From Gammaproteobacteria bacterium (GTDB taxonomy: Bacteria; Pseudomonadota; Gammaproteobacteria; Pseudomonadales; Pseudohongiellaceae), in contig RKSA01000052.1 of the NCBI GenBank assembly GCA_007571115.1, positions 1-32,883 on the forward strand: DNA of 32,883 bases. Direction: 5' to 3'. Position numbers and translations under genes: made by a program. The notes beneath the pieces are model-generated. The model saw nothing but the letters and a program-made list of their open reading frames with translations, was not told the origin of the DNA and did not search any database. Below, piece by piece: positions 8,822 through 14,125 of this stretch (the first letter of the stretch is position 1; each line of letters starts with the position of its first letter).

Positions 8822-8897
8822 GGGGCCTTAGCTCAGATGGGAGAGCGCAACGCTGGCAGCGTTGAGGTCACCGGTTCGATCCCGGTAGGCTCCACCA
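8822..8897 (+). tRNA. tRNA-Ala, anticodon GGC, CCA encoded
   Basis: GGGGCCT acceptor pairs with AGGCTCC; anticodon arm CAACG-CTGGCAG-CGTTG; T-loop GGTTCGATCCC; CCA end; 76 nt. Confidence 0.97.
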
Positions 8898-8957: not shown

Positions 8958-10262
8958 TCACGCCGAATTTCCAGCGAAACGCCCCACCGGGTAATCCCTC
9001 TTGACCGGTCCCCGATAGAGTTGCCGCGGCCGGCCGATCTTGTAGGCGCCGCTGAGCATCTCGTTCCAGTGCGCCATCCAGCCCGGCGTGCGGCCGGTGG
9101 CGAAGATCACGGTGAACATGCTCGTTGGGATGCCAAGCGCTCGCAGGATGATTCCGGAATAGAAATCGACATTGGGGTAGAGCTTGCGCTCGACGAAGTA
9201 GTCGTCCTCCAGGGCGATCTGTTCGAGCCGCCTGGCGATGCGGAACAGCGCACCATCGGCGGCCGCGCCGACTTCCTCGAGCACCCGGTCGCAGGCTTCG
9301 CGCATGACCGTCGCGCGAGGGTCGAAATTCTTGTACACGCGGTGGCCGAATCCCATCAGCCGGTACGGGTCGTCGGGATCCTTGGCGCGGCGGATGAACT
9401 CGTCGATGCGACTCTCCGAGCCGATTTCGAAGAGCATTTTCAGCACCGCCTCGTTGGCGCCACCGTGGGCCGGCCCCCACAGCGCTGCGATTCCCGCAGC
9501 GATGCACGAGAAGGGGTTGGCGCCCGTCGAGCCGGCGAGCCGCACCGTCGAGGTCGAGGCGTTCTGCTCGTGGTCTGCGTGCAGGAGGAAGATCAGATCC
9601 ATGGCCCGGGCGAGCACCGGGTTGATATCCTGCTCCTCGCAGGGAGTGCCGAACAGCATGTGCAGGAAGTTTTCCGCAAACCCCAGCGAGTTGCGCGGAT
9701 ACATGAAAGGCTGGCCGACGCCGTGCTTGTAGCACATCGCTGCGAGGGTCGGCATCTTGGCGATGATTCGCTGCGCCACCAGCATGCGATGCTCCGGGTC
9801 CGAGATGTCGAGGCTGTGATGGTAGAAGGCCGACAGGGCGCCGGCCACGCTGACGAGCATCGACATCGGATGGGAACTGCGCGGGAAGCCTCGGAAAAAC
9901 TGGTGGATCTGCTGATCGACCATGGTGTGGTAGCGGATGTTGTTCTCGAATTCGAGCTTTTCTCCGGCCTCGGGCAGTTCGCCGTGCAGCAGCAGGTAGC
10001 AGGTTTCGAGGAAGCTTGAATGCTCGGCGAGCTGCTCGATGGGATAGCCCCGGTGCAGCAGCACGCCATCGTCGCCGTTGATGAAGGTGATGTCCGAATC
10101 GCAGGCCGCAGTGGACATGAATCCGGGGTCGTAGGTGAAAATGCCTTGCTCGCTCAGGCCGCGAACGTCGATCACGCTGGGGCCGGCACTGCTTTCGTGA
10201 ATGGGCAGCTCGACCGTCCCGGGCTCGCCGTCAATCGTCAATCGCGCTGTTTTCCTGGTCAT
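8958..10262 (-). CDS. gltA: citrate synthase (type II)
   Basis: 434 aa; [100 protein letters not shown]. Confidence 0.96.
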
Positions 10263-10841: not shown

Positions 10842-11206
10842 CCAATGCGACCAGCCTTGGTCGCTCGGGCCTGTTCGACTGGCTGGTGCAACGCCTCAGC
10901 GCCCTGATCGTGCTCGCCTGGACCCTGTGCGTGCTTGGCAGTGCGCTGCTGATGCCCGAGTTCGATCACGCACACTGGCGGGCGCTGTTCGACTCGCCGG
11001 CGATGCGCATCTTCAGCCTGCTCGCCTTGCTTTCGCTTTGTGCCCACGCCTGGGTCGGAATCTGGACTGTCAGCACCGACTATCTCAACGAGGCGCATCT
11101 CGGCAGGTGGGCGACCTTGCTGCGGCTTTCGGTGCAGCTTGCCTGCGCCCTGCTCACTGCGGTCTATCTGCTCTGGGGAGCGCAAATCTTCTGGGGCGGG
11201 GCATGA
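10835..11206 (+). CDS. sdhD: succinate dehydrogenase hydrophobic membrane anchor
   Basis: [30 protein letters not shown]...[18 protein letters not shown]; overlaps the sdhC end and the sdhA start. Confidence 0.88.
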
Positions 11207-12975
11207 GCGCATTGCGCAGCATCACCTTTGACGCGATCATCGTCGGTGGCGGTGGCGCCGGAATGCGGGCCGCCTTGCAGCTTGCGCAGTCGGGCTTTCG
11301 CACCGCAGTGCTGTCGAAGGTGTTCCCGACCCGCTCGCATACCGTTTCCGCCCAGGGCGGGATCACCTGCGCCATCGGCAGCGCCGACGCGGAAGACGAC
11401 TGGCGCTGGCACATGTACGACACGGTCAAGGGTTCCGACTACATCGGCGACCAGGATGCCATCGAGTACATGTGCAAGGAAGGCCCGCAGACCGTTTACG
11501 AGCTCGAGCACATGGGGCTGCCGTTTTCCCGCACCGCCAATGGCCGAATCTACCAGCGCCCTTTTGGCGGCCAGTCGAAGAATTTCGGCAAGGGCGGCCA
11601 GGCAGCGCGGACCTGCGCTGCGGCCGATCGCACCGGCCACGCGCTGTTGCACGCGCTCTACCAGGGCAATTTGAAAAGCGGCACGGTGTTCCTCCACGAA
11701 TGGTATGTCGTCGATCTCGTCACCAACCAGGATGGCGCGGTCACCGGGGTCAGCGCGATCAACATCGAGGACGGCGAAGTCTGCCACGTCGAGGCCGCAG
11801 CGACGGTGCTCGCCACGGGCGGGGCAGGGCGGATCTACGCATCGACGACCAATGCCCTCATCAATACCGGCGATGGAGTCGGCATGTGCCTGCGAGCCGG
11901 CTTTCCTGCCCAGGACATGGAAATGTGGCAGTTCCATCCGACCGGGATCCATGGCGCCGGAACCCTGGTCACCGAAGGCTGCCGGGGCGAAGGCGGCTAT
12001 CTCGTCAACCGCGACGGCGAACGCTTCATGGAACGCTATGCGCCCAACGCCAAGGATCTTGCCGGTCGCGACGTGGTCGCGCGGGCCATGGTGCTCGAGG
12101 TGCTCGAAGGCCGCGGCTGCGGCGAGCAGGGCGATCATGTCATGCTCAAGCTCGATCATCTCGGCGCCGAGGTGCTCAATGCCAAGCTGCCGGGAATTCT
12201 CGAGCTGTCGCGAACCTTCGCCCACGTCGACCCGGTTCGCGAGCCGATCCCCGTCGTGCCAACTTGCCACTACATGATGGGAGGCATTCCGACCACGGTC
12301 CACGGTCAGGCGCTGCAAATCGATGCGAGCGGCGCCGACGAGCCGATTCCGGGGCTGTTCGCTGCGGGGGAGGCGGCCTGCGTTTCGGTTCACGGCGCCA
12401 ACCGCCTCGGCGGCAACAGCCTGCTCGACCTCGTCGTGTTCGGCAGGGCCGCCGGCAAGAAGATCGAGGAGCTGCTGCAACAGGGCCTGCAAATACGCAA
12501 GGCCGCAACCGGGGACGTCGAGAAGAGCCTCGAGCGGCTGCGGCGGCTCGACGAATCGCGCTCGGGCGAGAGCACTTCCGCATTGCGTGCCGAACTGCAG
12601 AACATCATGCAATTGCATTTCGGCGTGTTCCGCACCGGCGAATTCATGCGCGAGGGAATCGCCAGGCTCGCCGAACTTGGGCCGCGCATCGATTCGCTCT
12701 GGCTCGAGGACAAGAGCGCCGCCTTCAACACCGCGCGGATCGAGGCGCTGGAACTGGGCAATCTGTTTGCCGTCGCCGAGGCTACGGCGATCGCCGCCGA
12801 AGCGCGCAACGAAAGCCGCGGCGCCCACGCCCGGGAAGACTACCGCGAACGCGACGACGCGAACTGGCTTTGCCATTCGCTGTATTTTCCCGGGCGCAGG
12901 GAAACCGGCAAGCGCCAAGTCAACTTCCAGCCCCAGACGATGGAGGCTTTCGCGCCCCAGGCGCGAACGTACTAG
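11203..12975 (+). CDS. sdhA: succinate dehydrogenase flavoprotein subunit
   Basis: [81 protein letters not shown] overlap with sdhD. Confidence 0.96.
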
Positions 12976-13007
12976 CAAAGCAGAGCACATGATGCATTTA
13001 CGTAGAC

Positions 13008-13368
13008 TCGAACAGCCCCGCACGAAGCCTCAACCTCACTCCCCCCTTGAGGGGGAGTCGCAGAGAGCAAGCCGTCAGGCGCAGCTCGATGCGGTGGGGG
13101 GAGCCCCGGCCGGCGAAGCCGGCGGGAAGCGTAGCTTCCCGAGGGGCGAACGACTTGCCGTGGATGGCAAGGCTGGGGTTTGTCGAAGTCGATGCAGTTG
13201 CGCCAGGGGATGCCTGCACAACCCATCGGATCTCCAGCAAAAGGCGCAGCCGATGCGACTTGGCCACTGGCGCCGTGCCGGCGCTACCCCCCACCGGCGC
13301 ACCTGCGGGCTGACGCCCTTGCCTTGCCGACTCCCCCTCAAGGGGGGAGTGATGCTGGGGCTGCTCGA
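13008..13368. mobile_element. non-coding inverted-repeat (MITE/BIME-like) element between sdhA and sdhB
   Basis: Perfect 23-bp inverted repeat actccccccttgagggggagtcg (13038-13060) / cgactccccctcaaggggggagt (13328-13350); outer arms tcgaacagcccc (13008-13019) / ggggctgctcga (13357-13368) with one mismatch; inner imperfect arms around cggtgggggg / ccccccaccg; no convincing CDS inside. Confidence 0.65.
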
Positions 13369-13417
13369 AGTTCCATGGAAGGGGGCAGGTGTTGGGGTTT
13401 CGTGAGGTGATACAGTC

Positions 13418-14125
13418 ATGCTAGTCAGCATTTATCGTTACAACCCGGAGTGCGACGACAAGCCGGCGATGCGGGATATCGAAGTCGAGGTGCCTGCTGA
13501 TCGCGACCTGATGGTGCTCGACGTGCTCGAGCTCGCCAAGGCCAAGGATCCGTCGATCACGTACCGGCGTTCGTGCCGTGAAGGCGTGTGCGGCTCCGAC
13601 GGCATGAACATCAATGGCTTCAATGCCCTTGCCTGCATCACTCCCTTGTCGAAGGCTCTCGGCAAGGGGAAAAAGCTGGTGCTGCGGCCGCTGCCCGGCC
13701 TGCCGGTGATTCGCGACCTCGTCGTCGACATGACGCAATTCTACCGGCAGTTCGAAAAGGTCAAGCCGTACCTTATCAACGACGAACCGCCCCCGGCGAT
13801 CGAGCGCCTGCAAAGCCCCGAGCAGCGCGAGCAGCTCGACGGGCTCTACGAGTGCATTCTTTGCGCGTGTTGCAGCACGAGCTGCCCGTCGTTCTGGTGG
13901 AACCCAGACAAGTTCATCGGCCCCGCCGGACTATTGCAGGCCTACCGCTTCCTCGCCGATAGCCGCGACACCGCGACCCGGGAGCGCCTCGCCGAGCTCG
14001 ACGACCCGTTCAGCGTGTTCCGCTGCCGGGGAATCATGAATTGCGTGTCGGCCTGCCCGAAAGGGCTCAATCCGACCCAGGCGATCGGCAAGATCAGAAC
14101 GATGCTCGTGCAGGAAGGAACGTGA
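13418..14125 (+). CDS. sdhB: succinate dehydrogenase iron-sulfur subunit
   Basis: SCREGVCGSDGMNINGFNALAC; YECILCACCSTSCPSFWWN; CRGIMNCVSACPKGLNP. Confidence 0.96.
   Translation: MLVSIYRYNPECDDKPAMRDIEVEVPADRDLMVLDVLELAKAKDPSITYRRSCREGVCGSDGMNINGFNALACITPLSKALGKGKKLVLRPLPGLPVIRDLVVDMTQFYRQFEKVKPYLINDEPPPAIERLQSPEQREQLDGLYECILCACCSTSCPSFWWNPDKFIGPAGLLQAYRFLADSRDTATRERLAELDDPFSVFRCRGIMNCVSACPKGLNPTQAIGKIRTMLVQEGT

Follow-up and report, generated by a model that had tools for sequence, protein, structure and literature searches.

The window, the whole stretch of DNA that we analyzed, is 32,883 nucleotides long and contains an sdh-suc operon in which sdhA, sdhB, sucA, sucB, lpd, sucC and sucD were recognized with Pfam. 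The genes overlap by 4 nt at the sdhD-sdhA, sucA-sucB and sucC-sucD junctions, and the remaining junctions that we read are short gaps. A first-pass annotation of the sequence had drawn attention to a gap of 442 nt between sdhA and sdhB amid this compact cluster, and the coordinates and Pfam matches bear this out. Both genes are intact, and the order of the operon is normal on both flanks of the gap. No intrinsic terminator or sigma-70 promoter was found in the gap. sdhB starts with ATG at position 13418, where most close relatives have GTG; the ATG start is possibly a compensation for lost coupling. Elsewhere in the window, a tRNA gene (8822–8894, + strand) lies just past the 3' end of gltA (complement, 8958–10262). 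The features at the junction are as follows.

11203–12975, + strand: sdhA, 590 aa (Pfam).
12976–13417, + strand: whole sdhA-sdhB intercistronic gap, 442 bp.
13008–13019, + strand: outer 12-nt arm, pairing with 13357–13368 (92%).
13016–13101, + strand: left end unit (a 'B-unit' in inverted orientation), with further copies dispersed through the genome.
13036–13060, + strand: left 25-bp perfect terminal inverted repeat, holding the hairpin CTCCCCCCTTGAGGGGGAG at 13039–13057.
13092–13101, + strand: inner 10-nt arm, pairing with 13287–13296 (100%).
13098–13220, + strand: structured core module, 134.3 bits with covariance model R1, sense with the operon.
13103–13147, + strand: three-way junction of the core, with closing stem 13103–13107/13143–13147 and hairpins 13109–13123 and 13124–13140.
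13154–13171, + strand: core hairpin 3, CTTGCC-GTGGAT-GGCAAG; the family loop is ANGGAN, and its first A is G here.
13202–13213, + strand: core hairpin 4 region, GCGCCAGGGGATGCC; the family C-ANGGAN-G loop is broken by an extra G.
13266–13362, + strand: right end unit ('A-unit'), the piece dispersed most often.
13328–13352, + strand: right 25-bp perfect terminal inverted repeat, holding a hairpin at 13331–13349.
13404–13410, + strand: GAGGTGA, the likely Shine-Dalgarno sequence of sdhB from sequence inspection, downstream of the element.
13418–14125, + strand: sdhB (Pfam).

The longest perfect inverted repeat in the gap is 25 bp, compared to 13 bp for the longest among 40 shuffled sequences. 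It is enclosed in 53-nt arms (13026–13078 and 13310–13362) that are 79% complementary. The annotation was right that a perfect repeat is present here but gave its length as 23 bp. The outer 12-bp arms with one mismatch, the inner complementarity and the hairpin within each arm that it described were all recovered. The hairpin is a 19-bp palindrome with two occurrences in the window; chance would not be expected to produce it, even if three mismatches are allowed. The very large RNA structure that had been proposed was also predicted, with a folding energy for the gap of −241.8 kcal/mol (z = −7.9). The perfect terminal inverted repeat, the length of ~360 bp (less than ~600 bp) and the lack of coding sequence are features of MITEs. 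The description of the element held overall but missed that 13098–13220 is a separate, widely distributed structured module.

The host genome is a 1.9-Mb draft in 257 contigs, 88% complete, with the window as contig C201. Using the gap as query, we obtained 52 BLAST matches in this genome, on 23 contigs besides that of the window. The pattern of the 19-bp palindrome was present at 12 sites, compared to none for the reversed control. Read side by side, the copies elsewhere are combinations of three modules: the A-unit, the related B-unit and the core. Because the modules are combined in varied ways, the gap is a mosaic and not one simple element. The A- and B-units also occur alone, by eye commonly near gene ends, and the palindromic end units are seen in both orientations, alone, paired or around cores. 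Some cores stand by themselves, others form a tandem array where contig C78 ends, and on C207, C96, C85 and C20 and in the window the core is linked to an A-unit. The occurrence of the end units alone or combined elsewhere gives good support to a BIME- or MITE-like non-autonomous insertion. The array on C78 (10767–11076, L017) consists of truncated core units of ~70 bp. On C6, C85 and C128 (L008, L009 and L005), similar coding sequence (...WTLQMEMAHRASAFEPGHWGIQIG...) adjoins several A-unit copies.

The sdhA-sdhB gap was measured in ~105 relatives in which both genes were found. In nearly all of them it is 8–138 bp, usually 12–31 bp, compared to 442 bp here; the values of −1 and 1 in two relatives probably reflect gene-call offsets. 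The gap is 15–25 bp in the nearest same-genus genomes (G056, G018, G022, G030, G063, G021 and G033). There is a second empty site in the sister genomes: G022 has a full-length insertion at a junction that is empty in G056, where a query made of the joined flanks aligns straight across with no gap of element size. The first-pass proposal of a MITE- or BIME-like non-autonomous element, and the genome search and empty-site comparison that it called for, have thus come out in its favor. The element is not a conserved single-copy sequence, and repeats elsewhere and empty sites are both present.

G037 is the clear exception among the relatives, with an sdhA-sdhB gap of 368 bp. Its insert (L125) shares the core of the window element and the orientation of that core, and the GGA loops are intact. 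The outer arms are completely different from those in the window, and the two inserts have no flank sequence in common. In a tree of SdhA and SdhB, the window species lies beside (G037,(G018,G033,G030)). We also considered an ancestral insertion common to the window species and G037, which we do not favor. Because that reading needs precise loss in G018, G033 and G030, and because there is no shared flank or arm sequence, we prefer the simplest reading, that these appear to be two independent insertions; alternatively, there may have been one old insertion followed by turnover.

We aligned 26 cores from the window genome and sister genomes. In the core, a three-way junction made of a closing stem and two hairpins is followed by hairpin 3 and by hairpin 4, which is short. 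When this structure is imposed on the alignment, 98.0% of the cells pair, and both sides have changed in 12 of the 27 pairs. Covariation was 0.224, compared to 0.107 ± 0.008 when shuffled and 0.05–0.07 (maximum 0.073) when slid. Covariance model R1 had 15 matches in the window genome and at least 30 in each of the eight sister genomes richest in copies (G018, G021, G022, G030, G033, G037, G056 and G063). Matches in other same-genus genomes had lower scores, and in an order-wide sample of 343 genomes from 131 genera, weaker relatives of the core were matched (E ≤ 1e-4) in 21 genomes and 14 genera. There was no gathering-level Rfam match over the element, and the permissive matches were chance-like. 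The matches listed in a literature search with the literal sequences were all unrelated, and a search for dispersed CsrA-binding repeats found nothing matching. The core is apparently a widespread, previously undescribed structured family, and it is a candidate for a new RNA-like family. GU and AC mismatches in the core stems are balanced (38 and 35; 29 and 30 in solo cores), so the stems give no RNA-strand signal and no support for selection on pairing at the RNA level. Long tandem and nested core arrays are present in G063 (L354, G063:C1:1052167-1056129; L264, L286, L344 and L345), with extra hairpins inserted within hairpin 3 of some core units.

Gene context was determined for 97 non-redundant sister loci, with genes called by a codon-position score and not curated. 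Between codirectional genes, solo cores were predominantly in the sense orientation (25 sense, 2 antisense; p = 6e-6). For copies with outer arms the orientation was 15 to 9, a bias that is not significant. In 15 solo cores, the reading frame upstream stops exactly at the TGA within the GGTGAGG of the core. Cores in other families, too, begin at a stop codon, commonly after a terminal glycine. In G025, G045 and G055 (L268, L270 and L272), the 5S rRNA terminator is directly followed by a core, in front of which the 3' end of the 5S rRNA is repeated in inverted form, like a fold-back copy. In G030, G120 and G351 (L357, L396 and L385), a 5' fragment of a tRNA, ending in the D-loop region, is followed by a core and then by the intact tRNA, and the target seems to have been duplicated. 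The fragment in G030 and G120 belongs to a direct repeat of roughly 75–90 bp.

In full sister copies, the outer arms have the form GTCGCCG-N-CAGCGG ... CCGCTG-N'-CGGCGAC. Over 61 copies, the variable part has 56 distinct sequences. Its two sides are 94% complementary in the same copy, and the match between different copies is only 47.5%. Such copy-specific arms could result either from selection on the stem or from template-switch correction of palindromes. Another dispersed repeat, AGATTCTGCGACTGCGC...GCGCAGAATGACG, often adjoins elements in sister genomes (L292, about 1700–1755; L171, L172 and L168).

Hairpins 3 and 4 have C-ANGGAN-G in nearly all of 129 distinct near-full-length copies. The loop A, the GGA and the closing C-G are ~90–99% conserved in these copies, and the two N positions vary. 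Ten of the exceptions at hairpin 3 have a shorter AGGAT loop, as in ACAGGATGT. The consensus for CsrA/RsmA is (A/U)CANGGANG(U/A) (PMC6692469), and CANGGANG apical hexaloops are high-affinity (PMC4894983). The loops of the core family match this hexaloop consensus; those of the window copy do not. The window copy has GTGGAT in hairpin 3 and AGGGGAT in hairpin 4. Because both loops are degenerate, predicted CsrA binding is doubtful there, and the copy is probably a weak or dead candidate CsrA site. In copies from other families the stems are wholly changed, and most loops keep C-ANGGAN-G; R1 was built from sequences with GGA loops and contains them, so the distant matches are biased towards such loops, and some matches are without them (L279, L281, L398 and L399). 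There is a csrA gene in the window genome and in the carrier genomes. By analogy with the known RNAs RsmU and RrA/RrB/RrF, binding of CsrA/RsmA where mRNAs end is the likeliest function of the core family. We give an even chance that intact members work as RNAs in this 3' position, with the paired C-ANGGAN-G hexaloops as their CsrA/RsmA sites.

The annotation had also proposed a search for an IS or RAYT-type transposase with matching ends. A RAYT link is not supported: there were no matches to Y1_Tnp (PF01797) in the window genome, which is 88% complete, or in the eight copy-richest sister genomes. The same search was positive in controls and in many other relatives, including other same-genus genomes. 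A DUF559 endonuclease (PF04480), the other candidate mobilizer searched for, was rejected because it is absent from the window genome. REP palindromes have a GTAG or CGTC tag at the foot (PMC3733652), and neither tag lies within 5 nt of either palindrome in the window. No target-site duplication was apparent by eye in the copies, the ends of which are not sharply defined. The insert works like a BIME or MITE, yet it has neither the RAYT nor the tag of a REP or REPIN. It resembles BIMEs and REPINs (PMC2817692, PMC3116915) in having short, dispersed, intergenic palindromic units that are combined in both, alternating orientations. It differs in that a structured core of 120 nt separates the units, that the arms are copy-specific in the sister species, and that the RAYT gene and the tag are lacking. 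Like MITEs, it is shorter than 600 bp, non-coding and multi-copy, with perfect terminal inverted repeats and empty sites in relatives, including the one in G056. Unlike MITEs, it has end units that are also found alone, no target-site duplication was seen, and no parent transposase was identified with PF01797 and PF04480.

The core can also be compared to known CsrA/RsmA-binding RNAs. RsmU (PMC7694677) binds RsmA and derives from the 3'-UTR of a Xanthomonas gene, a position like that of solo cores, and it has GGA motifs in hairpin loops. RrA, RrB and RrF immediately follow the 5S rRNA where E. coli rRNA operons end (PMC8144298), like the cores in G025, G045 and G055, and also have GGA loop motifs. 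In contrast to these RNAs, the core recurs as a dispersed structure with covariation and without an Rfam match, and its CsrA binding is a prediction. CsrR1 and CsrR2 of Alcanivorax, another marine gammaproteobacterium, are predicted CsrA-sequestering sRNAs with several GGA motifs (PMC9788540). By their description, they are two sRNAs and not a dispersed repeat family.

The insert is multi-copy and modular, its site is empty in relatives, and its core has base-pair covariation. We are fairly confident that the gap is a non-autonomous composite dispersed repeat, with two opposed palindromic end units around a structured core, inserted between sdhA and sdhB after the split from the sampled relatives. 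The units would have spread at the DNA level, through an enzyme or through hairpin-templated replication errors. At the locus, this part of the sdhA-sdhB mRNA would most likely fold into a single very large hairpin that separates the two cistrons; sdhB would be started from its own Shine-Dalgarno sequence, and the effect on the operon is expected to be modest and mostly tolerated. An assembly artefact or misjoin within the contig is very improbable. In favor of it, the draft genome is fragmented and contigs end at several of the other copies; against it stand the intact sdhA and sdhB, the normal operon order on both sides, and the comparable insert in an independent genome, G037.

The short palindromes, the many dispersed copies, the paired inverted units and the mosaic structure are also what a classical REP/REPIN-BIME would have, its palindromes being REPs paired in inverted orientation and mobilized by a RAYT (TnpA-REP) HUH transposase, and other same-genus genomes do have RAYT-type Y1_Tnp genes. 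We consider this unlikely given the missing Y1_Tnp and tag, and given arms in sister species that vary from copy to copy, unlike REPs; a RAYT since lost may have been a past mechanism. It is also quite unlikely that the insert was selected here as a riboregulator that acts in cis on sdhB and sets the SdhA:SdhB ratio, possibly via CsrA. Central carbon metabolism is under Csr/Rsm control, the core is sense with the operon, and G037 has this core at its sdhA-sdhB junction too, with intact GGA loops and other arms. However, G018, G033 and G030, the sisters of G037, are without the insert; two insertions with no common flanks or arms point to independent events or to one unstable insertion; the canonical loops are lost in the window copy; and the element is dispersed over many unrelated genes. 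Somewhat doubtful, yet with a larger share of the probability, is maintenance of the palindromes at the DNA level only, in which template switching at hairpins keeps complementarity without any RNA function. It would account for copy-specific arms that are near-perfect internally and for the symmetric GU/AC mismatches, as symmetric DNA-level correction predicts. It leaves unexplained the conserved single-stranded ANGGAN loops, the sense bias of solo cores, and the conservation of loops across families despite the change of the stems.

On its own, the window locus is a fairly ordinary insertion, and the core family behind it is of greater interest. Tentatively, and at somewhat less than even probability, the sequences suggest that the core is a family of structured RNAs, selfish or semi-domesticated, and that it spreads at gene 3' ends (CDS stop codons, 5S rRNA and tRNAs), giving these a stop codon and paired C-ANGGAN-G hexaloops. 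It would thereby turn tens of unrelated transcripts per genome into CsrA/RsmA sites, and its full-length form would have self-complementary outer arms private to each copy. If true, a sense-specific gene-end repeat with the motif of a global regulator would be a mobile-element route to rewire or titrate the Csr/Rsm network. The copies described here give concrete loci for this question, including the same junction hit in two species, and their copy-specific complementary arms are a natural system to separate structural selection from palindrome-correcting mutation.
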